This document shows positions 4,562 through 41,273 of a stretch of DNA of 41,275 bases, piece after piece. The stretch spans positions 1 to 41,275 of the forward strand of contig JAPPGI010000146.1 in the NCBI GenBank assembly GCA_028874985.1, written 5' to 3'. The position numbers were made by a program, and so were the translations under genes. Numbering within the stretch: position 1 is the first letter of the stretch; the number at the start of each line of letters is the position of its first letter. The notes below the pieces were generated by a model. That model did not search any database, was not told where the DNA came from, and saw only the letters and a program-made list of their open reading frames with translations. The stretch comes from Gemmatimonadota bacterium. GTDB lineage: Bacteria > Gemmatimonadota > Gemmatimonadetes > Longimicrobiales > Gaopeijiaceae.

Positions 4562-4629
4562 GCACCGCCGACAGAGGGAAGCCGACGGGAACCATGCCTT
4601 TGAAGCGCGGGCGCGCCAAGCTTGAGTGA
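4558..4629 (+). other. 23-codon bridging ORF between the VTT and PLD genes
   Basis: ATG at 4558 overlaps the preceding TGA as ATGA, and the frame runs 23 codons to a TGA at 4627-4629, overlapping the TTG start of the PLD-like gene by 8 bases. GAGGGAAG lies inside it, upstream of a second in-frame ATG at 4594. It may be a leader that carries ribosomes from one cistron to the next, or the relic of a longer N-terminus lost by a frameshift. No function is assigned. Confidence 0.25.
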
Positions 4630-14531: not shown

Positions 14532-15932
14532 ATGACCTACGAGAAGATCAACGAATGGGCGCGGGCCGGCGAATCGGAGCAAATGGAATTCAAGGCTACG
14601 ACCGGACAGCGCCGCGAAGCCGCCCAGACAGTGTGCGCCATGCTAAACCGTCATGGCGGCCACGTGATCTTTGGCGTAGAGAACGGCGGACGCGTGGTGG
14701 GGCAGCAGATCGGCCAAGACACCCTCCGAGACATCCAACACGAACTCGGCAAGATCGATCCACCGGTCTATCCGTCAGTTTCGAAGATCGAAGTCGGACC
14801 GGACCGCGGCGTGGTGGTCGTATCCGTCCCGGGTGGGCCGAACAAGCCGTACAGCTATCGTGGCATACCGTACCAGCGAGTCGGCGATACCACCGTCGAG
14901 ATGGCCGGAGGCGAGTATCAGCACATTCTCGTGGAGCGGCTTCATGCCCAGACGCGGTGGGAGAATCAAACTGCGGACGGCTGGAGTGCGGCGGACCTCG
15001 ATCATGGTCAGATCGTCCTGACGGTCGAGGAGGCGATTCGGCGCGGTCGCATGGAGGATCCCGGGACGCGAGCCCCCCTGGAACTGCTCCGCGGCCTCAA
15101 TCTCCTCCTTCACGACGGAAGCCTGACCCGCGCCGCCGCCGTTCTCTTCGGCATTTCGGCTCGCCTCGAGGTGGAATACAGCCAGTGTCTGCTGCGCGTT
15201 GCCCGGTTTCGAGGCAACACGCGGACGGAGTTTCTGGACAATCGGCAGTTTCACGGACACGCCTTCGAGCTCCTTCGCCTCGGAAGCAGGTTCCTGAGGG
15301 AGAGCCTCCCGGTCGCCGGACGTGTCCTCCCCGGCGTCTTCGCGCGAGTGGACGAGCCGATGTACCCGGTCGAATCGCTGCGCGAGGCATTAGCCAACGC
15401 GATCTGTCATCGGGACTACAGTATCGGGGGCGGGTCGATCGCAATCGGCGTCTACGATGACCGACTTGAGATCACGTCCTCGGGCACGCTCAATTTCGGT
15501 CTCACTCCGGACGCGCTGTTCGAACCCCACGAGTCCCTTCCGTGGAATCCCCTGATCGCCGGAGTCTTCTATCGTCGCGGCATCATCGAGAGGTGGGGAA
15601 GGGGTACGATCAGGATGGCCGAGCTGGCCGACAAGGCGGGCCTCCCGAGACCCGAGATCGAAGATGCGGGGGGAGGCGTTACCGTGCGTTTCAGGCCAGG
15701 CGGCTATGTCCCGCCACGCGTGGTGGCACGAAGCGTGTCAGAGCGGCAACGCGCCATCCTCTCCCTCCTGAACGAGGCTTCGGACGGGCTGGCTCTGCGA
15801 GAAATCGTAGGGCTGCTGGGGAATGGGGACGAGGAGCGGCGACGGGTCAGGGGGGATCTGGCGCACTTGCGGGCGCTGGGTCTTGCGGTGACTCGTGGCC
15901 ATGGGCGGGGAGCGCGGTGGTGGCGGCGGTGA
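14532..15932 (+). CDS. AlbA_2 (Schlafen-like) DNA-binding / RecG-like regulator
   Basis: The protein has 466 residues. The N-terminal AlbA_2 domain (about 13-130) has 'ESEQMEFKAT', 'REAAQTVCAMLNRHGGHVIFGVEN' and 'PYSYRGIPYQRVGDTTVEM'. The central region (about 280-370) has an HATPase_c_4-like segment with 'SLREALANAICHRDYS', 'IAIGVYDDRLEITSSGTL' and 'GIIERWGRGTIRMAELA', as in COG2865 regulators. The C-terminal ~65 residues form a winged helix (ERQRAILSLLNEASDGLALREIVGLLG). Such proteins are transcription regulators or putative defence genes and are common in islands. No clear ribosome site precedes ATG 14532. Its last 86 bases overlap the 3' end of the convergent ATPase gene. Confidence 0.85.
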   Translation: MTYEKINEWARAGESEQMEFKATTGQRREAAQTVCAMLNRHGGHVIFGVENGGRVVGQQIGQDTLRDIQHELGKIDPPVYPSVSKIEVGPDRGVVVVSVPGGPNKPYSYRGIPYQRVGDTTVEMAGGEYQHILVERLHAQTRWENQTADGWSAADLDHGQIVLTVEEAIRRGRMEDPGTRAPLELLRGLNLLLHDGSLTRAAAVLFGISARLEVEYSQCLLRVARFRGNTRTEFLDNRQFHGHAFELLRLGSRFLRESLPVAGRVLPGVFARVDEPMYPVESLREALANAICHRDYSIGGGSIAIGVYDDRLEITSSGTLNFGLTPDALFEPHESLPWNPLIAGVFYRRGIIERWGRGTIRMAELADKAGLPRPEIEDAGGGVTVRFRPGGYVPPRVVARSVSERQRAILSLLNEASDGLALREIVGLLGNGDEERRRVRGDLAHLRALGLAVTRGHGRGARWWRR

Positions 15933-17091
15933 TCCGAAATGTCACCAGCTTCCCCTCCCACAGCCTGCGCACGAATGTCTCCGCGGGCAGCACTTCGATC
16001 CCGTCCGGCGTCCGGCGCGGGCGCGGCTCGAGGCAGACAACCACGCGCCGGCCGGGATCGTGTTCCAGCGCCAGGCTCCGCAAACCCTTGAGGTGGTGGC
16101 GACCGACGGTCTCGCTCGCCTTCGCCTCCACGGCCAGGGCCATGTCGCCCAGCACGAAATCGACCTCGACTCCGCTGGGAAGCCGCCAGTGCGTGAGCTC
16201 GGCGTCCAGGTCCGTGTACGCCACGAAGGCGGCAAGTTCGTGGTGCACCCAGTTTTCGAAGGCCTTGCCGTACAGCTCGGAGCCCCGATGCACGGTTCCA
16301 CGGCGGGCCAACCGGTTGACGACGCCCACGTCGGCGAAGTAGAACTTGGGTGCGCCGATCAGCCGGCGCTTGCGGCGCTTGCGCCAAGCCGGGAGCCAGC
16401 GTCCGAGAAGGGTGTCCTCGAGAATCCCGAAATAGCCCTTCACGGTGGGGCTCGACACACCGCATTCACGCGCGATGTTCGAGAAGTTCACCGGCTCCGT
16501 GTCGCTTTGCGCCGCTACGTCCAGGAAACGGGAGAAGGCGGGCAGACTGCGGACCATCCCCTCCGCCGCGACTTCCTCCCTGAGGTAGTCCGCAATGTAC
16601 GCGTCGAGCAGTTGCCGGTGGCGCGCTGCCTGGTGGATGCGCGGCAGGTACCCCCGGTTCAGCAGCCGGTCGAGGTCGAGGCCGCTGCCGATTTCGGCCG
16701 CCGTCAGACCGCGCAGCTCATAGCGGAGGGCCCGCCCGCCGAGCAGGTTCGCGGCGCCTCGCCTGACCTTCCTCGCGCTGGAACCGCAAAGCGCGAAGTG
16801 GAAGCTCCGGTTCTCCATGAGCCAGTGCACCTCGTTCAGGAGCGCCGGCACCTTCTGCACCTCGTCGATGACGACCTGACGCTCCGGATCCGGCCTGGCC
16901 GTTTCCAGTTCCATGCGGAGGAGCTCCGGGCGGGTCGCGTAGCGCCTGAACTCGTCGCTCTTGAGCAGGTCGATCCAACGGCCGCGGGGATAGTGCCGGC
17001 GCAGCAGGGTGGACTTGCCCGCCTGGCGCGGTCCCCACAGGAAGAAGGTCTCGCTCCCCGACCGTGGGAGAATGAGGTTGCGATTGAACAT
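15847..17091 (-). CDS. AAA_14-DUF4143 ATPase
   Basis: The protein has 414 residues from ATG 17091; a longer frame to 17805 runs antisense to another gene and is not credible. AAA_14 domain: Walker A 'LWGPRQAGKSTLLRR' (about 18-32), Walker B 'RQVVIDEVQKVPALL' (71-85), sensor-like 'FALCGSSARKVRRGAANLL'. After residue 200 the DUF4143 part includes a winged helix (NIARECGVSSPTVKGYFGIL) and a PD-(D/E)xK-like core 'GVEVDFVLGDMALAVEAKAS'. The family is widespread and often in islands; exact function is unknown. The C-terminal ~28 residues (after RRLWEGKLVTF) are low-complexity and antisense to the AlbA gene, suggesting that the original stop was lost. Confidence 0.88.
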   Translation of the reverse strand: MFNRNLILPRSGSETFFLWGPRQAGKSTLLRRHYPRGRWIDLLKSDEFRRYATRPELLRMELETARPDPERQVVIDEVQKVPALLNEVHWLMENRSFHFALCGSSARKVRRGAANLLGGRALRYELRGLTAAEIGSGLDLDRLLNRGYLPRIHQAARHRQLLDAYIADYLREEVAAEGMVRSLPAFSRFLDVAAQSDTEPVNFSNIARECGVSSPTVKGYFGILEDTLLGRWLPAWRKRRKRRLIGAPKFYFADVGVVNRLARRGTVHRGSELYGKAFENWVHHELAAFVAYTDLDAELTHWRLPSGVEVDFVLGDMALAVEAKASETVGRHHLKGLRSLALEHDPGRRVVVCLEPRPRRTPDGIEVLPAETFVRRLWEGKLVTFRITAATTALPAHGHESPQDPAPASAPDPP

Positions 17092-17310
17092 GTAACTCAG
17101 TTTATCATGATGACATAAAACACGCCAGCAATCTGGCGAGGTCGCGCCGACCATGGTGGCGACGGGAGCTACCCGCTGCGGGGTGGGGTGGAGGCGGTGA
17201 GTCCGGGGGGGACTTGCGGGGAGTTGGCGCCGTGACGACCGGTGTTGGGACCGGGCGCGAGCGACAATCTCCCGCGCCGTGTCCTGAGGGGCAGGATTCC
17301 GCCGCAATTT

Positions 17311-17346
17311 CATTGCAGTTATTTGCCATATCACACAAATTACCGC
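17311..17346 (+). promoter_or_regulatory. AT-rich promoter/operator region of the AbiEi gene
   Basis: This short AT-rich island in GC-rich surroundings runs up to the ATG at 17347. It holds TTGCAG (17313-17318), TTGCCA (17323-17328) and ATATCACACAAATTAC. No recognisable Shine-Dalgarno is present, so initiation may be leaderless or near-leaderless. AbiEi antitoxins repress their own operon, so an operator here is expected; I cannot define its repeats. Confidence 0.35.
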
Positions 17347-17985
17347 ATGAGATTCTCGGAACTGCTCCAGGCCGTCGAGGACGAACCCGTCTTCGAGACG
17401 GGGTTTCTGGTCGTCGGCCGACCGCCGGAGCCGGGTCTTCCGGCACAGCTTAGCCGATGGTGCGCGTCCGGTAGGCTGCTGCGGCTGCGACGCGGCCTCT
17501 TCGCGCTCGCGCCGCCGTACCGCAAGGTGATTCCCCACCCGTTCCTCGTGGCGAACCGGCTGGTGCCGGGATCGTATGTGAGCGGCCTGTCGGCGCTTGC
17601 GTTCGGGCACGCCATCCCCGAGTTCGTCCCCGAAGTCACGAGCGTCGGGGCCGGACGCGCCCACGTTCGCCGGACCCCGATCGGCAGGTACTCCTTTCGC
17701 AACCTGGCGCCCGCGCTGCGGCGCGGATACACGCTGCGGCGCCTCGGCGGCGGGCAGCGCGCGTTCGTCGCCTCGCCGGAGAAGGCTCTGCTCGACCTCG
17801 TCCACCTGCAGCCGGGGGGCGACGACCCCGACTGGATCGACGCGCTCCGGCTGAACGCCGAGGCGCTGTCGCCGGACCTACTGGAGGAGGCCGCCGCCGC
17901 GACCGGACGCCCGAAGCTCCGCCGGGCGGCGGCTCACGTGCGCGGCATGTCGGACGTCCCCCGACCGGCCTGCGAAGTCCTGTGA
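17347..17985 (+). CDS. AbiEi-type antitoxin / transcription regulator
   Basis: The protein has 212 residues. The N-terminal winged helix (about 1-65) includes 'QLSRWCASGRLLRLRRGLFAL', the typical AbiEi_1 beta-wing with Arg-rich turn. Next come 'VANRLVPGSYVSGLSALAFGHAIPE' and the 'FRNLAP' and 'AFVASPEKALLDLVHLQPGGDDPDW' segments characteristic of AbiEi-family antitoxins. It should repress its operon and block the AbiEii nucleotidyltransferase encoded next; the genes overlap by four bases (GTGA), a strong sign of pairing. Type IV toxin-antitoxin pairs of this kind give abortive phage resistance or stabilise elements. Confidence 0.88.
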   Translation: MRFSELLQAVEDEPVFETGFLVVGRPPEPGLPAQLSRWCASGRLLRLRRGLFALAPPYRKVIPHPFLVANRLVPGSYVSGLSALAFGHAIPEFVPEVTSVGAGRAHVRRTPIGRYSFRNLAPALRRGYTLRRLGGGQRAFVASPEKALLDLVHLQPGGDDPDWIDALRLNAEALSPDLLEEAAAATGRPKLRRAAAHVRGMSDVPRPACEVL

Positions 17986-18794
17986 AGGAGCACGCCCGCA
18001 CCCTCGTGCGCGGCCTTGATCCCCTGTCGGGCCGGAACGTCCTGAGGGAGTACCTCCAGGCCCGAGTCCTGGAGGGGCTGCAAAAGGCCGGAGCCATGTC
18101 GCCTCTCGCCTTCCACGGGGGCACGGCGCTGCGGTTCCTCTACGGGCTGCCCAGGTACTCGGAGGACCTCGACTTCGCCCTCGAGGGGTCCGCCGCGTCG
18201 TACGACCTGCGCGGATGGACGGCCCGCATCATCCGGCAATTCAGACGCGAGGGGTACGAGGTGGCGGGCTCCGTGCGGGACCGCGGGACCGTTCACGCCG
18301 GCTGGGTGAGGTTCCGGGGGCTGCTGCACGAAGCGGGGCTGTCTCCCCACCGGTCAGAGACCCTGGGCGTCAGGATCGATGTGGACACCGATCCGCCCGA
18401 GGGCGCCGTCACCGCCACGCGTCTCGTTCGACGGCACGTCTCGCTGCGGCTCCACCACCACGACCGCGCCTCGCTCCTGGCGGGGAAGCTGCACGCGGTC
18501 CTCAGCCGTCCATGGACGAAGGGCAGGGACATCTTCGATCTGGCGTGGTACCTGAGCGACGCGTCTTGGCCGGAGCCGAATCCGGAACTCCTGCGCGCCG
18601 CCCTCCGGCAGACCGGCGTCGACACCGGCCCGATCAGCGCCGAAGGATGGAGGCGGGTGGTCGCCGGGCGCGTGGCGGCCCTGTCGTGGGACGAGGTGTC
18701 GGCCGATGTGCGGCCGTTTCTGGGAGGCGCGGAGAGCCTGCCGGGGAGGGAGGAGGTGCTGGGCCTGCTGGAGCCCCTTCGGGCTTCGCGCTGA
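17982..18794 (+). CDS. AbiEii/AbiGii-type nucleotidyltransferase toxin
   Basis: The protein has 270 residues; GTG at 17982 overlaps the antitoxin stop. The nucleotidyltransferase core has 'LAFHGGTALRFLYGLPRYSEDLDFAL', with the GG motif at 46-47 and the catalytic Asp62-x-Asp64. Further on are 'GVRIDVDTDPP', 'LLAGKLHAVLSR' and 'KGRDIFDLAWYL', all conserved in PF08843 toxins. Members of the wider group add nucleotides to tRNA acceptor ends (MenT-type) or bind GTP (AbiEii). All key residues are present, so it appears intact. Confidence 0.9.
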   Translation: MKEHARTLVRGLDPLSGRNVLREYLQARVLEGLQKAGAMSPLAFHGGTALRFLYGLPRYSEDLDFALEGSAASYDLRGWTARIIRQFRREGYEVAGSVRDRGTVHAGWVRFRGLLHEAGLSPHRSETLGVRIDVDTDPPEGAVTATRLVRRHVSLRLHHHDRASLLAGKLHAVLSRPWTKGRDIFDLAWYLSDASWPEPNPELLRAALRQTGVDTGPISAEGWRRVVAGRVAALSWDEVSADVRPFLGGAESLPGREEVLGLLEPLRASR

Positions 18795-29083: not shown

Positions 29084-29245
29084 CCATCAAGGGGCACACA
29101 CGCGTTGGGCTCTGGGCCTTCTGCTCCTCGGCGCCGTCTGGTACGGGGCCTGCGGCAAAGATCCGGTGGACCCTCTCGGTCGCAACCGTGCAGGAAGGCT
29201 GGCGCCGACGATGCTGACGGCGGGCTTGCCACGGCCCGCCCGACC

Positions 29246-30196
29246 TTACGGCACGACTACCGAAAGAGCCGCGGGAACGGCATCCAGCCGAACCTCCCCG
29301 GTCCGCGCCTGGTGGACATCGCCGTCGACTTCATAGCGAACGCGTTCCTCGAAACGGACCGTAAAGCCGCGGTCCTGCCGCAAGGTCACCTCCTTCGCCC
29401 CCACATGCCCGCCCTTCGCGGCCAGGTTGAACAGGCGCGCGCGCCTCGCCGGAGAGGCATCGGCGATCGCGCACGCGTCCAGCCGACCGTCGTGCAGGTC
29501 GGCATCCGGAGCGATCGGGAATCCGCCCCCGAAGATGCGCCCGTTCGAGATCGTCAGGATGAGATGCCTTCCTTCCGTGCTCCATTTCTCGCCGTCCGAA
29601 AGCCTGAGCCGCGGGGCGCGGTACAGGAACAGTTGCTGCAGTGCAGTCAGCTTGTAGAGGAGAGGCCCTCGAAGAAGACGGGCCCGCAGGGTGGCGTCTA
29701 TGACGGCGATGTCGAAGCCGAAACCCACCAGGTTGAGGAAGTGCCGGGGTGACTCCCGCCAGGCCGTGCCCGCAGCCGCCTGCGGAGTCGCGGCGGGGCG
29801 CCAGTGCGATACCACCCGGCCCACATCTATTCGTCGGGTTCTGCCCGCGGCAAGTGCGGCGACCGCGTGCTCCGGGTCGGCGTAGCTCAGCCCCAGGCTT
29901 CTGCCGAAGTCGTTGCCGGTGCCCGAAGCCAGCAGACCCAGCGAGACATCCGGATTCCCGGAAGCCACGACGCGGTCCGCCACCTGGCTCCAGGTCCCGT
30001 CACCCCCCACCGCCACGACCAGCTTCGCGCCTGCGGCGATCGCACGGTCCGCAAGCGCCGCCTCCTCGCCGGGCGCTGTCGTCGCCGCCCAATCGTAGGT
30101 CCGGAGGTGCCTGTCGAGCAGGCCCCTGTAGAGCCCGACCCGGCGCGCGCCCCGCCCGTGTCCCGAGGCGGGGTTGAAGATGACGAAGGTGTGCAC
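29246..30196 (-). CDS. Diacylglycerol/sphingosine-kinase-like lipid kinase
   Basis: The protein has 316 residues. GTG at 30196 is chosen because the family begins right there (VHTFVIFNPASGHGRGARR) and GGGGA is 5 bases upstream; a longer start would overlap the previous gene. The catalytic domain has 'LVVAVGGDGTWSQVADRVV' (GGDGT at 64-68) and 'LGLLASGTGNDFGRSLGL', the nucleotide-binding and substrate loops of the DAGK/YegS/SphK family. The C-terminal beta-sandwich includes 'FLNLVGFGFDIAVIDATL' and 'GGGFPIAPDADLHDGRLDACAI'. It phosphorylates a lipid alcohol with ATP. Being third in an operon that starts with an alpha-oxoamine synthase, its substrate might be a long-chain base rather than diacylglycerol. 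Confidence 0.87.
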   Translation of the reverse strand: MHTFVIFNPASGHGRGARRVGLYRGLLDRHLRTYDWAATTAPGEEAALADRAIAAGAKLVVAVGGDGTWSQVADRVVASGNPDVSLGLLASGTGNDFGRSLGLSYADPEHAVAALAAGRTRRIDVGRVVSHWRPAATPQAAAGTAWRESPRHFLNLVGFGFDIAVIDATLRARLLRGPLLYKLTALQQLFLYRAPRLRLSDGEKWSTEGRHLILTISNGRIFGGGFPIAPDADLHDGRLDACAIADASPARRARLFNLAAKGGHVGAKEVTLRQDRGFTVRFEERVRYEVDGDVHQARTGEVRLDAVPAALSVVVP

Positions 30197-30213
30197 CGGC
30201 GTCCCCGGCTCCT

Positions 30214-30876
30214 TCAGATGCGCTCCAGTTCCTCGAAGACCTGGACGCCGTCCCTCATCCATTGCTCGCGGAACGGACAGGTGGCCACCTGGTCCCGGTC
30301 GAGCGGTGCGGTCATCGGGTGCTCATGGAGCCGGAGCGATCCGAGTTCCTCCTCGTGCTCGCTGTGCGGGCCCCGCATGTGGATGTCCACCTTGAAGCGA
30401 TGGTCGGCGTTCACCATGAACGACTGGTACAGATGATCGACCTCTTCCCTGTGGTGGTCGGTGATCTCCATGTCCAGGACCGGCCGGTCGCCCTCGCCGA
30501 CTTCGACCCGCATCCGTGCGTCCATGGGGGTGAAGTTGATGTCGAGGTCCTTCATGTAGTGCGGGAGGTGCCAGCGTTCGATGGCATGTTGCCGTGACGC
30601 TTCGGTGCTGGTTCCGACCAGAAACGGGTAGAAGGCCGACTTGGCCATCTCCTGGCCCCGGCCCATCAGAGGCGGCACGATCACCGAGAGCACGATCTCC
30701 TGGTAGGGACCGACCATGCTGTCGGAGAAATCGAAGGCCGTGACCGCGAGAATGCCGGACTCGTGCTGTATTTCAAGGGGCTGCAGGTGCGGCGGCAGAA
30801 CACGCCGCGCGTTGGATGTGGGGAATTCGAAAAAGGCGCTGACGGCCAGCGAAAAGTGATATCGGGTCAGGGGCAT
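30214..30876 (-). CDS. Acetoacetate decarboxylase-like (ADC fold) protein
   Basis: The protein has 220 residues from ATG 30876, overlapping the upstream synthase stop by 10 bases. Segments 'LPPHLQPLEIQHESGILAVTAFDFSDS', 'VGPYQEIVLSVIVPPLM' and 'KSAFYPFLVGTSTEASRQHAIERWHLPHYMKD' fit the ADC-like fold, where a Pro-Tyr-x-Glu strand and Lys/Arg-lined cavity bind beta-keto or related acids. The catalytic Lys of true acetoacetate decarboxylase cannot be confirmed by eye. In this operon it could act on, or bind, a 3-keto lipid intermediate. The assignment rests on a few motifs, so moderate confidence. Confidence 0.55.
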   Translation of the reverse strand: MPLTRYHFSLAVSAFFEFPTSNARRVLPPHLQPLEIQHESGILAVTAFDFSDSMVGPYQEIVLSVIVPPLMGRGQEMAKSAFYPFLVGTSTEASRQHAIERWHLPHYMKDLDINFTPMDARMRVEVGEGDRPVLDMEITDHHREEVDHLYQSFMVNADHRFKVDIHMRGPHSEHEEELGSLRLHEHPMTAPLDRDQVATCPFREQWMRDGVQVFEELERI

Positions 30877-32276
30877 TTTCCGTGTTTCTTGAGAACGGAG
30901 GTGATGATTTCGGCACCTTCCTCCAGGTCCGCCCGGGTGTGAGCGGCCGAGATGGACATGCGGAACCGGGACTTGTGTTTGCCGACGGCCGGATAGCGGA
31001 CGGGGTTGAGGTAGACTCCGGCGTGGAGCAGGTCTTCGGCGATCTCGAAGACGTTGGGGTCGTCGCGGATCATGATCGATATCACCTGGGAGTTGGAATC
31101 GCCCATGTCGACTCCGGCGTCGCGCAGCAATCCATGCATGTAGCGGGTGTTGTCCCACAACCTGTCCCGCAATTCCGGCTCGTTCCTGGCGATCTCCAGG
31201 GCCTTGAGCAACCCGGCAACGACGCCCGGCGGCAGCGCGCATGAGAAGATCCGGGCGCGTGCGAACCCCTTGAGATAGACGGTGAACTCCTTGCGCGCGG
31301 CCACGAATCCTCCGAGCCCGCCCAGACTCTTGGAGAACGTGCCGAGGTGGATGTCGACCTCGTCGTCGAGACCGAAGTGCTCCGCGACGCCGCGTCCGTT
31401 CGCACCGTACACGAAGGTGGAGTGCGCTTCGTCGACCAGGAGGCGCGCTCCGTGCCGCCGGCAGACCTCGACGATCGCGGGCAGGTCGGCGACGTCACCG
31501 TCCATCGAGTAGACGCCTTCGACGATGACCAGCTTCTTGCCCTCGAAGCCGCGCAGCTTGCGGTCCAGATCGGCCGCGTTGTTGTGCTTGAAGAAGCGTG
31601 AGGTGGCCTTCGAGAGGATCATCCCGTCCACGATGCTGGCGTGCGCCAACCTGTCCGCCACGATCAGATCGCCGGGGCGCATGAGGCCCGAAATGGCCCC
31701 GAGGTTGGCGCTGTAACCGGTCGGGAAGAGGATCGCCGCCTCCTTCCCCTTGAAATCCGCCACCTCCTTCTGGAGCCTCTTGTGAAGGTCCATGGAGCCG
31801 GAGAGGATCGGTGATCCGGAGGCCCCGGCACCGTATGCGCGCACACCCTCGCAGACGGCCTCGATCACTTCGGGGCGGTAGGACAGCCCCAGGTAGTTGT
31901 ACGAGGCGAAGTTGATGAGCCCCGCGAGCGTCTTCCGGGTCTTGGGGTCCTGAATCGCCACCCGCGTCGAGGGCGCCGACCCCATGGGCAGCGCGTAGAG
32001 GTAGTAGCGTCCCCCGAACTGGGCGTCCTTGTACCACTCCCCGAACGGTTCGAGAATCCCGAACGGATCGGTTCCCGCCGCGAAGTAGAAGTTGGTGTAG
32101 TCGTAGGTCCTGAGCCGACGAAGCGACTCCGCGTCTCCGGCCCCGCGGGAGGCATGCACGGAGGCGTCCCGCCTCCCGTCTGGGCTGCCGGTACCGAAGT
32201 CCGCCCTCCCGTCATCCGCTTTCGGTCGCGCTGATGCCGGAGCAGACTCTCCGCTGGCGTGTCGGACGTTACTCAT
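30867..32276 (-). CDS. Alpha-oxoamine synthase (serine-palmitoyltransferase/KBL-like)
   Basis: The protein has 469 residues from ATG 32276, followed by a ~45-residue low-complexity lead. The PLP fold-type I core starts at 'RTYDYTNFYFAAGTDPFG', then 'LINFASYNYLGLSYRPEVIEA', 'YGAGASGSPILSG', 'ILFPTGYSANLGAISGL', 'VIVEGVYSMDGDVADLP', 'RLLVDEAHSTFVYG' (Asp282) and the Schiff-base Lys316 in 'HLGTFSKSLGGLGGF'. The family condenses an amino acid with an acyl-CoA/ACP and loses CO2 (AONS, KBL, ALAS, SPT). The GTFSKxxGGxGG block and the 'YYLYALPMGSAPSTRV' N-terminal region look closest to SPT-like enzymes. Linked ADC-like and lipid-kinase genes argue for lipid rather than biotin synthesis. Confidence 0.85.
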   Translation of the reverse strand: MSNVRHASGESAPASARPKADDGRADFGTGSPDGRRDASVHASRGAGDAESLRRLRTYDYTNFYFAAGTDPFGILEPFGEWYKDAQFGGRYYLYALPMGSAPSTRVAIQDPKTRKTLAGLINFASYNYLGLSYRPEVIEAVCEGVRAYGAGASGSPILSGSMDLHKRLQKEVADFKGKEAAILFPTGYSANLGAISGLMRPGDLIVADRLAHASIVDGMILSKATSRFFKHNNAADLDRKLRGFEGKKLVIVEGVYSMDGDVADLPAIVEVCRRHGARLLVDEAHSTFVYGANGRGVAEHFGLDDEVDIHLGTFSKSLGGLGGFVAARKEFTVYLKGFARARIFSCALPPGVVAGLLKALEIARNEPELRDRLWDNTRYMHGLLRDAGVDMGDSNSQVISIMIRDDPNVFEIAEDLLHAGVYLNPVRYPAVGKHKSRFRMSISAAHTRADLEEGAEIITSVLKKHGKCP

Positions 32277-32450
32277 ATGCGCATCCGATGTTACGCCGAC
32301 CGCACCGCCGCCGCAATGAGGGCGAGTCATTGGATCTCCACGTCGGGTCTTCCGCGTCACAACGCCTATCCATACCCGGTTGTCGGTCCGAGAGCAAACC
32401 TGCGAGGCAGCCCTCCGGGAACGGACCCGCGGGGATGCCCGTTGGCGGGA

Positions 32451-32748
32451 TCACTCGCCCTCGGCGTCCTCGTCGACTTCCCGGGCGTGGTCGTCCCCCC
32501 GGCGGGAGCGCCGGCCGCAGGTGTAGCCGGCGGACGCCTCGCAGCAGGTCCAATCTCCCTTGTCTCCGCAACGGCCGCACGACCAGATCCGGCAACAGGC
32601 ACTCCCGCGGGACCTTCCACATCGCTGCCGGCGGAGCCAGCAGATCAGCAGGATCACCAGCAGGATCTGGGGGAAGGCCGATTCGGATGGCCGATCCCCA
32701 GAACTCGGCCAGGGACGTCACGTACCAGCTGAAGAGGTCTCCAAACAT
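32451..32748 (-). pseudogene. Cys-rich single-pass membrane protein, apparently frameshifted
   Basis: ATG 32748 begins MFGDLFSWYVTSLAEFWGSA. A second frame, entered near 32685-32695, continues with a hydrophobic helix (FPQILLVILLICWL), then RRQRCGRSRGSACCRIWSCG with further Cys (nine in all, four CxxC/CC-like spacings) and an acidic tail DEDAEGE to a stop at 32451. Neither frame alone makes sense: the first becomes Pro/Arg-rich. A GTG at 32657 could start a 68-residue product from the second frame. It is either a small gene with one frameshift or a short membrane protein from the GTG. Confidence 0.4.
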
Positions 32749-32815
32749 GATTCTCCATCCTCGGTTCGGGCGGCGATTTCCTCTCGGGCATCATCCCGGC
32801 GTCAACGCCATCCCC

Positions 32816-33046: not shown

Positions 33047-36000
33047 TCACGAGTCTCCTTCTCCGTATTCGCGAGCCGCAGCCTCGACGGTAACGTACCC
33101 GTCCAGCACGTCTTCGCGCACCCTTTCGCGGCTTCTGGCACGCGGATCCCCCAGCCCCCCGCCCCCCGGCGTCTCCAGCACGATGCGGCGCCCCGGGGGC
33201 ACGACCTCCCTTCCCTTCACCCGCATCTCCCCCACGCCCGGCACATGCACGCGCCCGGGAGCCCCCGCCCCGCCCCCGTCCCTTCCCCGCGCGGCGTTCC
33301 TCACCCGCTCGAACATCTTGGACACCGCGAACGGAGCGCCATCCGCGTGCGACACCTCCATGACCTGGCCCAGGCCCCCCCGATACTCGCCCGGGCCACC
33401 CGAGTCCGGGATGTACTCCTTCCGCCAGAAGATGAGCGGCGCCACCGTCTCGGTGATCTCGATCGGCGTGCTGCGAACCCCCGACGGGAACGATGTCGCG
33501 CTCAGCCCGTCCTTCCCCGGCCGCGCCCCCGTTCCCCCGGTGTGGAACGGGTTGACCACGAAGGCCTCCGAGTCCCCGTACGGGTACGTCCCGGTGAGCC
33601 CCGGCCCACCCATGAAGACCGGGTTCCAGAGACACGACGACCCCTCGGCCGGGACCGATCCGGGGGGCATGGCCCGGCCCAGGCAGCCGAGCACCACGTC
33701 GGGGAGCATCTGCCCGATCGAGTGGCGCGCGGAGACGGCGGCGGGCGGTGGCGCGTTGAGAAGGCAGCCGGACGGCGCGGTGACCTCGATCGTGCCCAGC
33801 GAGCCCGCGTTGTTGGGGACCTCGGAGCCGACCACGCAGCGCACCCCGAAGGAGCCGTACGCCCGCGTGTACGTCCCGGGGACGTTGATCCCGTACGGTG
33901 ACATGGGGGACGTGCCGGTGAAGTCGATGCGGATGCCGGCGCGCGAGACGGTGAGCGCGCACACCAGCTCCAGGTCCCGGTCGTAGCCGTCTATGGTCAT
34001 GCGGTGGCGGTAGGTGCCGGGCCTGAGGGCGCGGATGCGGTCGAGCATTGCGCGGCGGGACGCCGTGAGGATCATCTCCGCCAGCCCGTCGAGCGCATCG
34101 AGGCCGAACTCGTTCATCATGGCGATGAGGCGCTCGCCCCCGGTGCGGTTGCACGCCGCCAGCGAGTAGAGGTCGCCCTGGGCCACGTCGGGGTCGCGCA
34201 CGTTGGCGCGCACCATGCGCATGAGCGTCCCGTCCACGCGGCCGGCCCTGGTGAGGTGGCAGATGGGGATGCGGATGCCCTCCTCGAAGACCTGGTTCGC
34301 GTCGGCGCCGAAGCCGCGCCCGCCCACGTCGGCTATGTGACTGGTGGCCGCGAAGAGCGCGACCGGGCGGCCCCTGAGGAAGGTCGGGGTGACGACCGTG
34401 AAGTCGTTGAGGTGGCCGGTGCCCTCCCAGGGGTCGTTCGTGACGAGAACGTCGCCCTCGGCCAGGGTCTCGACGGGATGGTCGCGGAGGAAGAAACCGA
34501 CCGAGGCCGCCATTGCGTTGACGTGCCCGGGTGTTCCCGTGACGGCCTGGGCCAGCATGCGGCCCGAGAGGTCGAAGACGCCGGCCGAGAGGTCGCCCGC
34601 CTCGCGCACCGGTGTGGAGAAGGCGGTGCGCACCAGGGTGCGGGCCTGTTCCTCCACGACCGAGAGCAGCCGGCTCCACATGATCCGGTCCTGGAGGGCG
34701 GAGAGGCCGGCGCGGGCTGCCGCGGATGCACGGCGTTCGGCCAGCAGGTGGCCGCCGGGAAGTACGGTGGCGCGCCAGCCGCCGGGGATGACCGTCGTGG
34801 TCTGCTCCTCGGCGATCAGGGCGGGGCCGGTGACGCTGTCGCCGACCGAGAGTTCCGGGCGCGGATGAACCGCGGCGCGGACGGTTCCCTCGCCGGTCCC
34901 TTCGAAGAGATCGGTCCGGGCGGTTGGAGGGGGACCTAGCCGGAGCGCCGTCGGGTCGGTGGCCGCGGAGTCCGCGGGCTTCCCGGACTCGCCGACGTCC
35001 TCCACCGACCGCGCCGCTGCCGACACCGCCAGCGTCCAGCTCAGCACTTCAACGTCCAGCCCCGGAATCGTGCGTCCGTAGACGGCCTTGTACGCGCGGT
35101 CGAAGGCCGTCCGGAGTGCCACGACCGCCTCTTCGGACTTCGCTGCCGACCCCGTCCCGCCCCGGCCCCTCACCACCTCGCGCGGCAGCTCGACTTCGAT
35201 CTCGTGACCCTGTCCCACGTACCGCATGTAGGCATGCGCCCTCTCGGAGGTGGCCGCGCCGGGAGCGCCCTCCCGCACCACCGCCGCCGCCTCCGCCCGC
35301 ATCCCGGCCAGCACCTCGCGCACCAGAGCGGGATCGAAGCGCGACAACCGCATGTGGCGGCTCCGCACGACCTCGTACGAGATCGGCGCCAGCAGGAACC
35401 CCACCGCCGAACCCACCCCCGCGTCGACCGGCACCAGGAACCGGTCCAGCTCCAGCTTGTCGGCCAGGCGGGCCGCGTGGATCGGCGCCGACCCCCCGAA
35501 GGCGACCACGGTGCGGCCACTCAGCCCCTTCCCCCACTCGATGGCGTGGGTGCGGGCGGCGTTGGACATGTTCTCGTCCACCATCTCGCTCACCCCCAGC
35601 GCGGCCACCCGCGCGTCGAGCCCCAGCTTCGCCCCCACGCGGCCCCCGATCGCCTCCTCGGCCAGATCCCGGTCCAGCCCGATCGCACCCCCCGCGAACC
35701 GCTCCGGGTCGATCCGGCCCAACACCACGTCCGCGTCGGTCACGGTGGCGTCATCCCCGCCACGCCCGTACGCGGCCGGGCCCGGCTCCGACCCCGCGCT
35801 CTCGGGTCCCACGTGGATGCGGTCCATGTCGTCCACGCCCGCTATCGACCCGCCCCCCGCCCCGATCTCCACCATCTCGATCACCGGGATCCGCACGGGA
35901 AGCCCGCTGCCCTGCTTGAAGCGGTAGCTGCGCGCCACCTCGAAGGTGCGCGAGTGCGGCGGCTCGCCTCCGTCGATGACGCACAGCTTGGCCGTGGTGC

Positions 36001-36862
36001 CGCCCATGTCGAAGGAGAGCACGTCGCCCAGGCCGAGCTTGCGGGCCAGGTGGCCGGCCAGGATCGCCCCCCCGGACGGGCCCGATTCCACCAGGCGGAT
36101 CGGGGCCCTGATCGCGGTCGCCAGGGTGGTGAGGCCGCCCCCCGAGGTCATGAGAAGGAATGGGCACGCGAAGCCGCGCAGCCGCAGCGACACCGCAAGC
36201 CCGAGCAGGTAGCGGGCCATGAGGGGCTGGACGTACGCGTTGGCGCACGCCGTCGAGAGGCGTTCGTACTCGCGCACCTCGGGGCAGACTTCGGAGGCCA
36301 GGGTGACGACGAGGGCGGGGCGCTCGTCCGCGAGGATCTCGCCGATGCGGCGTTCGTGGGCGGGGTTGGCGTAGCCGTGGATGAGGCCGACCGCGACGGA
36401 CTCGACGTCGTGCTCGTCGAGGACCGGCAGGAGGGCGTGGACGGTGTCCTCGTCGAGCGGGACGAGGACGCGGCCATGGCGGTCGACGCGCTCCCGCACG
36501 GGGAGGCGGAGGCGGCGGGGGACGAGGGGCGGGGGGCGGTCGACGCCGATGTCGTACTGCTCGAAGCGGTTCTCCCGGGCCATCTCGAGGGCGTCGCGGT
36601 GTCCTTCGGTGACGATCAGCGCGGTGCGCGCGCCCTTGCGCTCGATGATTGCGTTGGTGGCCAGCGTGGTGCCGTGGATGACGAGCCGCACGTCGGAGGG
36701 CGCGACCGAGGCCATGTCGAGGACCCCGGCGACGCCGTCGAGGACGCCCCGCTCGGGGGCGCCGTGGGTGGTGAGCACCTTGGTGGTGACCAGGCGTGTC
36801 CCGGTTTCGAGGGCCACGTCGGTGAAGGTGCCGCCGATGTCGATGGCGAGGCGGGAGGGCAT
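33047..36862 (-). CDS. HyuA-HyuB fusion hydantoinase / 5-oxoprolinase-type protein
   Basis: The protein has 1271 residues from ATG 36862, one base after the SDR stop. Residues 1 to about 690 are HyuA: 'RLAIDIGGTFTDVALE' phosphate loop, 'IHGTTLATNAIIERKGART', 'FLLMTSGGGL', 'VLSFDMGGTTAKLCVIDGG', 'VVAFGGSAPIHAARLAD'. After an acidic/Pro-rich linker, residues from about 715 are HyuB: 'DRIMWSRLLSVVEEQARTLV', 'REAGDLSAGVFDLSGRMLAQ', 'VLVTNDPWEGTGHLNDFTVV', 'PNNAGSLGTIEVTAP' and the C-terminal 'PGGGGLGDPRAR'. HyuAB usually come as two ATP-dependent subunits (N-methylhydantoinase, acetone carboxylase relatives); one-chain fusion is the 5-oxoprolinase layout. True substrate unknown; the coupled SDR suggests a catabolic pathway for a cyclic amide or keto compound. 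Confidence 0.9.
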   Translation of the reverse strand: MPSRLAIDIGGTFTDVALETGTRLVTTKVLTTHGAPERGVLDGVAGVLDMASVAPSDVRLVIHGTTLATNAIIERKGARTALIVTEGHRDALEMARENRFEQYDIGVDRPPPLVPRRLRLPVRERVDRHGRVLVPLDEDTVHALLPVLDEHDVESVAVGLIHGYANPAHERRIGEILADERPALVVTLASEVCPEVREYERLSTACANAYVQPLMARYLLGLAVSLRLRGFACPFLLMTSGGGLTTLATAIRAPIRLVESGPSGGAILAGHLARKLGLGDVLSFDMGGTTAKLCVIDGGEPPHSRTFEVARSYRFKQGSGLPVRIPVIEMVEIGAGGGSIAGVDDMDRIHVGPESAGSEPGPAAYGRGGDDATVTDADVVLGRIDPERFAGGAIGLDRDLAEEAIGGRVGAKLGLDARVAALGVSEMVDENMSNAARTHAIEWGKGLSGRTVVAFGGSAPIHAARLADKLELDRFLVPVDAGVGSAVGFLLAPISYEVVRSRHMRLSRFDPALVREVLAGMRAEAAAVVREGAPGAATSERAHAYMRYVGQGHEIEVELPREVVRGRGGTGSAAKSEEAVVALRTAFDRAYKAVYGRTIPGLDVEVLSWTLAVSAAARSVEDVGESGKPADSAATDPTALRLGPPPTARTDLFEGTGEGTVRAAVHPRPELSVGDSVTGPALIAEEQTTTVIPGGWRATVLPGGHLLAERRASAAARAGLSALQDRIMWSRLLSVVEEQARTLVRTAFSTPVREAGDLSAGVFDLSGRMLAQAVTGTPGHVNAMAASVGFFLRDHPVETLAEGDVLVTNDPWEGTGHLNDFTVVTPTFLRGRPVALFAATSHIADVGGRGFGADANQVFEEGIRIPICHLTRAGRVDGTLMRMVRANVRDPDVAQGDLYSLAACNRTGGERLIAMMNEFGLDALDGLAEMILTASRRAMLDRIRALRPGTYRHRMTIDGYDRDLELVCALTVSRAGIRIDFTGTSPMSPYGINVPGTYTRAYGSFGVRCVVGSEVPNNAGSLGTIEVTAPSGCLLNAPPPAAVSARHSIGQMLPDVVLGCLGRAMPPGSVPAEGSSCLWNPVFMGGPGLTGTYPYGDSEAFVVNPFHTGGTGARPGKDGLSATSFPSGVRSTPIEITETVAPLIFWRKEYIPDSGGPGEYRGGLGQVMEVSHADGAPFAVSKMFERVRNAARGRDGGGAGAPGRVHVPGVGEMRVKGREVVPPGRRIVLETPGGGGLGDPRARSRERVREDVLDGYVTVEAAAREYGEGDS

Positions 36863-36863
36863 G

Positions 36864-37673
36864 TCAATGGCTGCCCGGGTCGCCCCCGGCGTCTTCGCGG
36901 AGCGGCACGGTGTAGTTGAGCGACAGCCGTCCACCGTCCGGGCAGATCGTGTCGCCGGTGATGTAGGAGGCGTAGTCCGAGGCGAGGAAGACCGCGACGC
37001 CCGCCACCTCGGACGGGTCGCCGATCCGTCCCATCGGGGTGCGCGACAGGATCCTGCGGCGGGCCTCGTCGTCGGCCGCGACCACCCGGGCCATATCGGT
37101 GAGGATGGTCCCGGGACCGATCGCGTTGACGCGGATGTCGTGCGGCGCCAGGGCCATCGCCATCGCCTTCGTCATCTGCGCGACGCCCCCCTTCGAGGCC
37201 GCGTAGGCAAGCTGGTCCGGGATCGTCACCACCGCGTTGGTCGACGACATGTTGATGATGCACCCCTTCGCGCCGCGCTCGACCATGTGCCGGGCGACGA
37301 GCCGGCCGAGCAGGAAGGACCCGCGCAGGTTCACCGCCAGGACGCGGTCGAAGTCCTCGACGGCGGCGTCCAGGATCGAGCCCGAAACTATGATCCCGGC
37401 GTTGTTGAGGAGGATGTCGCAGCCGCCGAAGCGGTCCGTGCAGGCGGCCAGCAGCGCGGCGCAGTCCGCCGGGTCGGTCACGTCGCAACGGGTGGCCGCG
37501 GTGGCCGCGCCGGTGTCGGCCGCGATGCCCCAGGCGGTCTCCGCGCAAAGGTCGTCGAGGACGTCTCCCAGCACCACATTCGCACCGTGCTCGGCGAAGG
37601 CACGGGCGCACGCTGCACCTATCCCCCTCGCCGCGCCGGACACGACGGCGGTCTTCCCCGCGAGAGAGATCAT
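36864..37673 (-). CDS. Short-chain dehydrogenase/reductase
   Basis: The protein has 269 residues from ATG 37673 (GGAG 9 bases upstream); ATG 37688 would add five residues. Rossmann motif 'TAVVSGAARGIGAACARAFAEHG' (TGxxxGxG type), 'CDVTDPADC', 'ILLNNAGIIVSG' (NNAG), catalytic Ser in 'CIINMSSTNAV' and Tyr-x-x-x-Lys in 'LAYAASKGGVAQM', 'IRVNAIGPGTILTDM', C-terminal 'ITGDTICPDGG'. A classical NAD(P)H-dependent SDR of the FabG-like group. It is translationally coupled to the hydantoinase/oxoprolinase fusion and likely reduces or oxidises a related intermediate. Upstream, an inverted repeat at 37832-37871 may mark its control region. Confidence 0.92.
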   Translation of the reverse strand: MISLAGKTAVVSGAARGIGAACARAFAEHGANVVLGDVLDDLCAETAWGIAADTGAATAATRCDVTDPADCAALLAACTDRFGGCDILLNNAGIIVSGSILDAAVEDFDRVLAVNLRGSFLLGRLVARHMVERGAKGCIINMSSTNAVVTIPDQLAYAASKGGVAQMTKAMAMALAPHDIRVNAIGPGTILTDMARVVAADDEARRRILSRTPMGRIGDPSEVAGVAVFLASDYASYITGDTICPDGGRLSLNYTVPLREDAGGDPGSH

Positions 37674-38225
37674 GCGTTCGGGCTCCATGGCGGTGGCGTG
37701 ATCAGGGGTACGGTATCTGCGGCCCCCCGCCCGGGAGGCGGACGCGCACGGCGGCTACGGCATCCGAAGTCGGGCGACGTGCTCCGTCTCCTCGGCCTGT
37801 CCGAATGGTCCGTGGCGCGTGAGGGCGGCCAGGTCTGGAGACTAGCCTACTCTCCCACGCTTCTCCAGACCGGGAGTCCTCAGGATCCGGATCGCCCCAC
37901 CCCCGGCCCGCACCCTGGCTGCAACGCCCTGCCTGGCAGCCTGCGGACAAAACCCCCGCATTCGAACGGCGATGCATTCGGGCTGGCCGCTTCGCCCTTT
38001 CCACGGACCGCTAGCATAAACTGCAAGCATTTCTGGCGCCGATCTCGTCCGATAACCTATCTTCGACGGAGTCGCTCGCCCGATCCGCGCCCCGACCGCC
38101 CCGCCCGGAGCCATTCAACACGAGGCCGCACATTGATCCCCTTCGACCGCCACACGCGTGCCACCGGAGGCCCCTTCCACGGCACACTCCGGATCAAGTC
38201 CGTGGCGCGAGCCAAGTTGATCGAC
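37674..38225. promoter_or_regulatory. Divergent intergenic region with a 10-bp inverted repeat
   Basis: This 552-base region separates the SDR-hydantoinase operon from the LRR gene. GGTCTGGAGA (37832-37841) and TCTCCAGACC (37862-37871) are perfect arms around 20 bases. The repeat could be an operator for the SDR operon or a hairpin. Near 38010-38030 there is an AT-richer patch (CTAGCATAAACTGC) that may hold a promoter for the LRR gene, without a good -35. No gene is supported. Confidence 0.4.
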
Positions 38226-41200
38226 ATGGGCCGCAAGCTCCTGGAAGGGTTCGGAGCGGGTCGGCGAACCGCAGCACGCCGATTCGCCGCGCTTCACCCA
38301 CATCGGGGAACCGGCGGCATTCCATGGATAGCGATGTTTCTGCTCTCGTCGTGCGAACCGCCACAGGCGACGACCGTGACGATCACCCCGGCCAGCGCCA
38401 CTCTGACGGCGCTGGAAGCCGGCATTCTACTGACGGCCGGCGTCCAGGACCAGCGCGGTGAGACGATGCCGGGGGTGCATGTGGCATGGGTCAGCAGCGA
38501 TGAATCCGTCGTGACGGTGCGCGAGGGTCTCGTGACCGCGAAGGGCAATGGCGCCGCGACCGTGACCGCATCCACCGGGTCGCTGGCCGCGAGCGCGCTG
38601 GTCACGGTGGACCAGGTGGTTACCGACCTGAGTCTGTCGCCGACCCTGCACATGATCGAAGCGATCGAGGACACGGTTCGGATCGAAGCCGAGGGCAGCG
38701 ACGCGAACGGACATCCGGTTCCGGACGCCGAATTCCTATGGTCGTCTAGCGACGAGTCGGTGGCGACGGTGGATTCAGCCGGACTTGTGACGGCCATGGC
38801 CCACGGCGGCGCATGGATCGCGGCGGCGGCGGATGCCGTGGAGGAGAAGGCCGCAGTGAGGGTCTCGCAGACACCGCGCACGGTCACGGTCTCACTCCCG
38901 GCCGACACTGTGATCGAGGGCCGTCTAATGCGGGCAACCGCCCATGCTACGGACGCAAACGGGCATCCCATCCCGTGGAGTCCGCTTTTCTGGTCGTCAT
39001 CCGACACTTCCGTGGCGAGGATCTTCGGAAGAGGAACGGTGCACGCTGTCGGGATCGGCCGAGCGGCGATCATAGCAGACTACGGTCCGGTCGAGGGCCA
39101 GTCGGAGATCACCGTTGTCGCCAACCCGGACCGGGCCGCACTCGTGGCGCTCTACGAGGCCACCGGCGGGCCGCACTGGACGGAAAGGCACAACTGGCTC
39201 TCAGACGTTCCCCTGGACCGTTGGACCGGCGTCAGCACCGATGGATCCGGCCGGGTCGTGAGGATCGAGCTTGTCCGGAACAATCTCAAGGGCCCGTTGC
39301 CGCCGGAACTGGGCAACCTGACCGACCTGCAGCTCCTCCGCATCCTCTCGAACGACCTGACCGGTCCGATCCCGCGCGAGCTCGAAAAGCTCTCCAATCT
39401 TCGGGAGCTTGAATTGTTTCGCAACGGCCTGACCGGGCCGATTCCGCCCGAGTTGGGAGGGCTCGCCAGCATTGAGAAACTCGACCTCCGTCTCAATCGC
39501 CTGAGCGGTTCGATCCCGCCGGAGCTGGGCCGCCTTGCCAATCTCGAAGAGCTCCACCTGAGTGGCAACAACCTCACCGGCACGATACCGCCCGAACTCG
39601 GTGAACTCGCCGATCTCACGTCCCTGAGACTTGGGACAAACGGCCTTGCCGGTCCGATACCCGCTCAGCTCGGAAGTCTTTCGAGTCTCACCTCACTCGG
39701 GCTGGCAGGGAACAACTTCGGTTCCCCGATTCCACCCGAACTGGGCGATCTCGCCAAACTCCAAGCGCTCAATATCGCCGCAAGCGGCCTTGTTGGCTCA
39801 ATCCCGCCGGAACTGGGCCGCCTCACAAGCCTGAAGAGCCTACACCTCCATTCCAACGGACTCACAGGCCGGATTCCATCCGAGTTGGGCGGTCTTGACA
39901 GCCTGACCTGGCTGTTCCTGGACTACAACAAGCTGGACGGCCCGATCCCGCCGGAACTCGGAGAACTGACCGGTCTCACAGCTCTCTGGCTCAGCAACAA
40001 CGCCCTGACCGGACAAATCCCGCCGGAACTCGGGAACCTGTCCAGCCTGGAGAGCCTTCTGCTCCTAAACAATGAGCTGAGTGACTCCATCCCCGCCGCA
40101 TTGGGGAACCTCCCCGCTCTGACGTCGATGTGGCTCCAGGCCAACGAACTCACCGGCGCAATCCCGCCGGAATTGGGCCGACTGCCCAAGCTGGTGTCAC
40201 TCCGCCTCCAATTCAACAACCTGACCGGTCCGATCCCGCCCGAACTCGGAACACTGACCAGTCTGCGGGGACTCGACCTCCACGACAACAACCTCGAGGG
40301 CACCCCGCCCGGGGCGCTCGGTGCGATTTCAGAGCTGCAGCGCCTGGAGCTGTCGAACAATGCCGAGTTGTCCGGACCACTTCCGGACAGCTTCACCTAC
40401 CTGCGCAGCCTCGAATCCCTCCATGCGGTTGGAACCGACTTGTGCGCACCGTCGGATCCCGATCTTCAAGCCTGGCTCGCGGATGTGATCGCGCAACGCA
40501 TCGCGAACTGTGATGGCCGCAGGGAAAAGGCGTACCTGACCCAGGCCGTGCAATCTCGAGAATTCCCGGTGCCCCTCGTCGCGGGCAGAGATGCTCTGTT
40601 GCGGGTGTTCGTCACGGCCACGAAGAAGACGACCGAGGGCATTCCAGGCGTGATTGCCAGGTTCTACCGGAACGGCAAGGAGACGCACGCGGTGACCATA
40701 CCCGCGAAGTCCACTCCCATCCCGGTCGAGGTCGACGAAAGCACGCTGACGAAATCCGCCAACGTGACGATTCCCGATTCCATCGTTCAGCCCGGCCTGG
40801 AAATGGTGATCGAGATCGATCCGGATGGCACGCTGGACGACTCCCTGGGAGTGCCGAAGCGGATTCCGGATAGCGGCCGGCTTGCCGTTGATGTACGGAG
40901 GGTGCCACTGTTCGATCTCACCATTGTGCCGTTTCTGTACAGCGAAGACCCGGATTCTTCGATCATCGACCTGGTCGACGACATGGCCGAAGACCCGGAG
41001 GGTCATGAGGAGCTCGATGCCACCCGTCTGTTTCTGCCGATTGACAGCTTTGCGGTGAGCGCGCACGCGCCTGTCGTTACGTCCACGAACAATGCACACG
41101 AGTTGCTGTCGGAGACCAAACTGTTGCATGGGATGGAGGGTGCCACGCACTACTATATGGGAACGATGGCCGGACGGGTAACCGGAGCGAGCGGAGTGGC

Positions 41201-41273
41201 GATTCTGGGAGGCAAGATGAGTTGGCTCTTCACCTGTCGTGGTGGGTGGGGAGGATCCGAAGCTGAATCATAG
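38226..41273 (+). CDS. BIG2-LRR lipoprotein with a truncated C-terminal domain
   Basis: The protein has 1015 residues from ATG 38226; a short start at 38334 (MFLLSSC) is possible but has no n-region. A lipobox-type segment 'IPWIAMFLLSSC' implies lipid anchoring. Three BIG2/Ig-like domains follow (hallmarks 'VAWVSSDESVVTV', 'FLWSSSDESVATVDSAGLVT', 'FWSSSDTSVARI'). An LRR cap 'LVALYEATGGPHWTERHNWL' leads to about 15-16 plant-type LRRs of 24 residues (LxGxIPPELGxLxxLxxLxL). The C-terminal part ('KAYLTQAVQSREFPVPLVAG' to 'HYYMGTMAGRVTGASGVAILGG') looks like the start of a secreted metallopeptidase-type domain, but stops before any HExxH. The last ~18 residues do not fit and probably come from an inserted element or frameshift. 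Likely a surface adhesion or processing protein. Confidence 0.8.
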   Translation: MGRKLLEGFGAGRRTAARRFAALHPHRGTGGIPWIAMFLLSSCEPPQATTVTITPASATLTALEAGILLTAGVQDQRGETMPGVHVAWVSSDESVVTVREGLVTAKGNGAATVTASTGSLAASALVTVDQVVTDLSLSPTLHMIEAIEDTVRIEAEGSDANGHPVPDAEFLWSSSDESVATVDSAGLVTAMAHGGAWIAAAADAVEEKAAVRVSQTPRTVTVSLPADTVIEGRLMRATAHATDANGHPIPWSPLFWSSSDTSVARIFGRGTVHAVGIGRAAIIADYGPVEGQSEITVVANPDRAALVALYEATGGPHWTERHNWLSDVPLDRWTGVSTDGSGRVVRIELVRNNLKGPLPPELGNLTDLQLLRILSNDLTGPIPRELEKLSNLRELELFRNGLTGPIPPELGGLASIEKLDLRLNRLSGSIPPELGRLANLEELHLSGNNLTGTIPPELGELADLTSLRLGTNGLAGPIPAQLGSLSSLTSLGLAGNNFGSPIPPELGDLAKLQALNIAASGLVGSIPPELGRLTSLKSLHLHSNGLTGRIPSELGGLDSLTWLFLDYNKLDGPIPPELGELTGLTALWLSNNALTGQIPPELGNLSSLESLLLLNNELSDSIPAALGNLPALTSMWLQANELTGAIPPELGRLPKLVSLRLQFNNLTGPIPPELGTLTSLRGLDLHDNNLEGTPPGALGAISELQRLELSNNAELSGPLPDSFTYLRSLESLHAVGTDLCAPSDPDLQAWLADVIAQRIANCDGRREKAYLTQAVQSREFPVPLVAGRDALLRVFVTATKKTTEGIPGVIARFYRNGKETHAVTIPAKSTPIPVEVDESTLTKSANVTIPDSIVQPGLEMVIEIDPDGTLDDSLGVPKRIPDSGRLAVDVRRVPLFDLTIVPFLYSEDPDSSIIDLVDDMAEDPEGHEELDATRLFLPIDSFAVSAHAPVVTSTNNAHELLSETKLLHGMEGATHYYMGTMAGRVTGASGVAILGGKMSWLFTCRGGWGGSEAES

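Follow-up and report, generated by a model that had tools for sequence, protein, structure and literature searches.

A non-canonical phosphosphingolipid-type pathway probably exists in Gemmatimonadota and Krumholzibacteriota, and three adjacent genes of a Gemmatimonadota bacterium would encode the half of it that comprises backbone synthesis and the kinase. This reading draws on gene content and order, on conservation and co-occurrence of the genes, and on protein folds and residue losses, from which all reactions were inferred. The DNA analysed (the window, 41,275 nucleotides) lies on contig 61 of a 4.25-Mb MAG (230 contigs, 95% complete), whose closest relatives are Gemmatimonadota MAGs. One of these is assigned to the BD2-11 clade, and several carry the label Gammaproteobacteria, which is probably wrong. 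The features discussed are the following.

30867..32276, minus strand: SPT-like alpha-oxoamine synthase (AOS), 469 amino acids, ATG at 32276, stop at 30867, PLP lysine K316 in GTFSKS
30214..30876, minus strand: ADC-fold protein without the catalytic lysine, 220 amino acids, ATG at 30876, stop at 30214, His106 at the lysine position
29246..30196, minus strand: DAGK/YegS-type lipid kinase, 316 amino acids, GTG at 30196, stop at 29246, GGDGT motif
32351..32405, no strand: deletion scar, bases 5364-7922 of the related locus L027 absent, flanks collinear on both sides
4100-4561: VTT-domain protein, confirmed by Pfam
4622-5761: PLD-like enzyme, confirmed by Pfam

The AOS, ADC-fold, and kinase genes

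An earlier note on this DNA had described three genes that overlap or lie 17 bases apart, and this packing was confirmed: the AOS and ADC genes overlap by 10 bp, and a 17-bp gap, which contains AGGAG before the GTG start of the kinase gene, separates ADC from DAGK. An alternative kinase ORF of 338 amino acids from ATG 30262 would overlap the ADC gene. Related loci came from a scan that covered 84,980 genomes. The ADC-fold gene lies directly behind the AOS gene in 60/60 Gemmatimonadota and Krumholzibacteriota loci (the contig of L064 ends within the ADC-fold gene), and the operon is therefore not a chance arrangement. The DAGK gene is third in 29 of these 60 loci, and some genomes have a split set, with AOS-ADC at one site and ADC, with or without DAGK, beside the head-group operon described below at another. 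The outgroup loci from Aminicenantes (L087) and Acidobacteria (L088) have an AOS gene without an ADC-fold gene behind it. Recent horizontal transfer of the operon was considered and is not supported: GC3 of the three genes is 0.81-0.86 versus 0.92-0.96 in several neighbours, but values in the related loci L027 and L028 are similar.

The AOS matches Pfam Aminotran_1_2 (2e-58), and its best match among solved structures is the Sphingobacterium SPT 3a2b (E 2.8e-84), followed by a Thermus AOS and a Sphingomonas SPT. Its PLP-site motifs SYNYLGL, DEAHS, and GTFSKS are SPT-like, the last corresponding to GTFGKA or GTLGKA in BioF- and KBL-type enzymes. Members of the AOS clade carry a phenylalanine two residues past the DEAHS serine, where other AOS have glycine. 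In a 58-row tree, which included several long-branched reference rows and was built without eukaryotic SPT, CqsA, SphA, and sulfonolipid synthases, the AOS clade was monophyletic (support 100/96) and shared a node with the SPTs (84/91); KBL, BioF, and ALAS fell outside this node. The majority of canonical SPTs, among them a distinct Gemmatimonadota set, made up a clade of their own (99/97), and the AOS clade was sister to this clade and not nested within it. This tree, which the earlier note had proposed as a check, gave no firm grouping with BioF or KBL, the outcome that the note had named as refuting; the AU test was less clear-cut, with a KBL grouping rejected only marginally (p 0.048) and a BioF grouping not rejected (p 0.096). 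Scores stayed below all NCBIfam SPT equivalog cut-offs (365.9 of 640, 346.8 of 500, and 275.2 of 670 bits) and reached no equivalog of the enzyme's own superfamily, the score for TIGR00858 bioF being high but sub-cut-off (371 of 426 bits). Given the marginal AU test together with the motif and tree picture, we call the enzyme SPT-like and not SPT, a naming made from sequence comparison that places it, with moderate support, with SPT rather than with KBL or BioF.

The middle protein lies just under the Pfam ADC cut-off (PF06314, 6.7e-7, 29.5 versus 29.8 bits), and PDB sequence searches with the protein or its profile returned no relative, so that the match came by fold comparison only. In a Foldseek search its model (pLDDT 94) matched only ADC-superfamily chains below an E-value of 0.001 (E 4e-11), and it aligned to this superfamily with Z up to 22.2 over 199 residues (rmsd 2.5). 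It is like the superfamily members 3bh2, MppR, and Swit_4259 in fold and in the E60 position but lacks their nucleophilic lysine: among 73 sequences this position holds His in 43, Tyr in 28, Thr in one, Phe in one, and Lys in none, and the LPK of two annotated Burkholderiaceae ADC proteins aligns to LPH in the window protein. Residues E35, R95, E177, and H186 are invariant in the 73 sequences and E60 nearly so. Tyr-type proteins occur only beside an AOS gene without DAGK (28/28), and His-type proteins beside AOS and DAGK (34), DAGK alone (3), AOS alone (2), or neither (3).

Because the lysine of established ADC chemistry is absent (0/73), Schiff-base decarboxylation is not expected, and the idea of a classical decarboxylase was abandoned. 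The ideas that remain are that the protein may carry out acid-base chemistry on a beta-keto amine or may present a lipid. The next fold match, a 25-phosphosteroid lyase (Z 7.5, rmsd 6.1), was also rejected, since such Z values are common background; that lyase works on the product of a kinase. The earlier statement that an ADC-fold partner lies outside the known bacterial sphingolipid routes holds within the literature searched, in which no paper connected ADC with SPT. In the closed genome G026, two further copies of the ADC-fold gene (L154 and L155) lie away from the lipid cluster; no recognisable lipid operon adjoins either copy, and a methyltransferase gene lies two genes downstream of the L155 copy.

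The third gene encodes a protein with the Pfam domains DAGK_cat (3.4e-26) and YegS_C (1.4e-23), a GGDGT motif, and a score above the cut-off of TIGR00147, the YegS/Rv2252/BmrU lipid kinases (124.9 versus 118.65 bits). A CpgB-type identity was not supported: in a comparison with the Roseomonas kinase at the CpgB position, only the GGDG region aligned (E 0.15).

The head-group operon of related loci

In 19-20 loci, two of them from Krumholzibacteriota, a divergent operon adjoins the AOS gene and encodes a PlsC-type acyltransferase (PF01553), a Tam41-fold nucleotidyltransferase, and a CDP-alcohol phosphotransferase (CDP-OH_P). The middle protein, here called CpgC-like, has weak sequence similarity to Tam41, and a model built from nine sequences (pLDDT 81) had as its best solved match CTP-bound Tam41 (7ecd, E 3.3e-9). 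It is like the Tam41 CDP-DAG synthases (7ecd, 6ig4) in fold but only 12% identical, and its lipid substrate is presumably a sphingoid lipid phosphate.

The CpgC-like protein is homologous to a Roseomonas hypothetical protein (35% identity, E 2e-29) encoded between DAGK and AcpR-SPT. The gene order in Roseomonas marmotae (CDP-OH_P, DAGK, CpgC-like, SPT, ACP) equals that of Caulobacter CC_1159 (CpgA), CC_1160 (CpgB), CC_1161 (CpgC), CC_1162 (Spt), and CC_1163 (AcpR) (PMC11324152, PMC10331486), which places the homologue at the CpgC position by synteny. Through Roseomonas synteny, the Tam41-fold protein is thus a putative CpgC orthologue. Homologues on plasmids lay in ACP-AOS clusters in 4/4 loci examined (two Roseomonas, Diaphorobacter, and Pseudomonas); near the Diaphorobacter gene is a lysophospholipid acyltransferase that shows no detectable similarity to the PlsC-type enzyme of the cluster.

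The CDP-OH_P is nearest to PIP and archaetidylinositol-phosphate synthases (E 9.5e-35) and scores below the PIP synthase equivalog cut-offs of NCBIfam (120 of 180 and 95 of 170 bits). An inositol-phosphate synthase was found in 12/12 cluster-bearing genomes tested versus 8/12 genomes without the cluster. Elsewhere in the window genome (G000, contig C121, 49566-51276; L178), a PIP-synthase-like gene is followed by one for inositol-phosphate synthase; most of the relatives tested keep this pair, which suggests that the group makes phosphatidylinositol.

The head-group genes co-occur with the ADC-fold gene. Among 58 relatives, the CDP-OH_P of the module is present in 15/17 genomes with ADC and in 0/41 without it, and the CpgC-like protein itself in 14/17 genomes with ADC. 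In a set of 150 genomes drawn from the whole phylum, ADC and the CpgC-like protein occur together in 21, ADC alone in three, the CpgC-like protein alone in two, and neither in 124 (Fisher 2e-20, shared ancestry ignored).

A proposed pathway and its relation to known systems

In the pathway that we propose, the SPT-like AOS would form a 3-keto long-chain base by condensing an acyl thioester with an amino acid (probably serine); the ADC-fold protein would act on or present this beta-keto amino lipid by chemistry without a Schiff base; the PlsC-type enzyme would add a second acyl chain; the DAGK-type kinase would place a phosphate on the terminal hydroxyl; the CpgC-like enzyme would use CTP to form a CDP-lipid; and the PIP-synthase-like phosphotransferase would attach inositol phosphate. 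The window organism has only the genes for the first, second, and fourth of these steps, so its end point would be the amino lipid or its phosphate, or else the operon is decaying. Points that count against the pathway are the unreached SPT equivalog cut-offs, the BioF grouping that the AU test did not reject, the absence of CerR and mostly of CerS, the distance of the kinase and CDP-OH_P from the Roseomonas CpgB- and CpgA-position proteins, and the lack of the head-group operon in the window genome.

The closest known counterpart is the ceramide phosphoglycerate cluster of Caulobacter crescentus (spt, cpgA-C; PMC11324152, PMC10331486, PMC12275187), which likewise brings together an SPT-type synthase, a DAGK-fold kinase, a CpgC-position protein with CDP-DAG-synthase-like features, and a CDP-alcohol phosphotransferase. 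There, CpgB is a proven ceramide kinase (PMC11324152, PMC10331486), and for CpgC the literature states that no mechanism has been identified (PMC12275187). Unlike in Caulobacter, the AcpR, AasR, CerS, CerR, and Lpt genes are absent at the locus, which has ADC-fold and PlsC-type genes instead; the kinase belongs to the YegS/TIGR00147 type and does not closely resemble the one at the CpgB position, and the phosphotransferase is nearer to PIP synthases, which suggests that inositol phosphate takes the place of glycerate.

The canonical CerS-SPT-CerR ceramide cluster likewise starts with an SPT-type AOS, but both partner genes are missing from the AOS-ADC clade, which branches separately in the AOS tree. 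The earlier note had advised looking for ceramide synthase and reductase genes elsewhere in the genome, and no strong homologue was found in G000: there was no CerR match at 1e-20, and the CerS match had only 30% identity (1.1e-13). Within the window's family, the AOS-ADC genomes that were tested gave no strong CerR match, and a clear CerS match came only from G033 and G027. A canonical ceramide route in the window organism is therefore unlikely, as judged by homology. In sister Gemmatimonadota families (L158-L160), a canonical-looking SPT gene is accompanied by a CerS-like GNAT gene and a CerR-like epimerase gene, so that the phylum apparently also has complete ceramide clusters.

The sphingolipid-like pathway of the earlier note is largely borne out by the SPT-like motifs, the SPT node, and the phosphosphingolipid-type head-group module of relatives. 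The VTT and PLD genes that it had cited as lipid context are real but lie 24 kb away and do not belong to the conserved cluster. A more tentative but still plausible extension is a separate, independently assembled bacterial ceramide-type pathway, in which the lysine-less ADC-fold protein and the PlsC-type enzyme would replace CerR and CerS, and the head group would be added via CDP-ceramide and inositol phosphate. For the attachment of head groups to bacterial ceramides, an NDP-activated ceramide has been raised as a possibility (PMC11324152). The six genes make this idea directly testable, as they bring together a kinase, a PIP-synthase-like enzyme, and a CpgC homologue whose structural model matches CTP-bound Tam41. 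If true, ceramide-type lipids would be built without CerS and CerR in two phyla, the ADC fold would serve lipid synthesis in a role other than decarboxylation, and inositol sphingolipids would be suggested for the largely uncultured Gemmatimonadota.

Truncation in the window and alternative readings

The window is collinear with L027, whose AOS is 86% identical, over 29233-32350, then 32406-32762, and then 33061-36858. In L027 the head-group operon (PlsC, CpgC-like, CDP-OH_P) lies at 5371-8018, and most of it is missing in the window; its genes were not found elsewhere in the window genome assembly. The window thus contains a truncated cluster, with the 2.5-kb head-group operon missing and both flanks kept. 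The outer flank of the deletion (33047-36934) encodes a fusion of hydantoinase A and B, oxoprolinase-type and 1295 amino acids long, which is conserved at 86% beside the cluster in L027.

It is possible, if somewhat doubtful, that the window operon is a decaying remnant without present function after the loss of the head-group genes, which would be compatible with the proposed pathway in relatives. The clean loss is consistent with this, as are the 43 amino-acid-changing and 39 silent changes in AOS and ADC on the window branch versus 13 and 35 on the L027 branch (Fisher p 0.006, ancestry ignored). Against it, the three frames are intact with their catalytic motifs, the ratio of about 1.1 is far below the neutral 2.5-3, and DAGK shows no comparable rise in amino-acid change; two further genomes (G048 and G050) likewise have AOS-ADC-DAGK without the head-group module. 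The intact frames and the ratio below neutrality indicate that the remaining genes are still partly constrained, possibly in early decay.

We regard it as unlikely that the AOS makes another alpha-amino ketone, from a different amino acid or a non-lipid acyl donor, and that the cluster represents a new class of non-sphingolipid phospholipid. The sister position to canonical SPT, the diagnostic phenylalanine, the unreached SPT equivalogs, and the absence of CerS and CerR would fit such a class, but the SPT motifs at the PLP site and the occurrence of the CpgC-like partner otherwise in SPT loci count against it. An assembly or binning artefact in an organism with the full pathway is less probable still: a 230-contig MAG invites this suspicion, but the junction is internal to a contig, the sequence on either side of it is collinear with L027, and the head-group genes are nowhere else in the assembly. 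Very improbable is a BioF (biotin) or KBL (threonine-catabolic) enzyme with unrelated neighbours, which the bioF score and the AU result for BioF would allow, given the tree and motifs, the conserved lipid-enzyme neighbourhood with no adjoining bio genes or tdh, and a KBL-type paralogue at another place in the genome.

Two other regions of the window were recorded. A DUF4143/AAA_14 ATPase is encoded at 15847-18794, and an AbiEii-type nucleotidyltransferase nearby is possibly part of a type IV toxin-antitoxin system. A long ORF with leucine-rich-repeat-like and Ig-like repeats (36381-41273) reaches the window edge, and its true start is probably internal.
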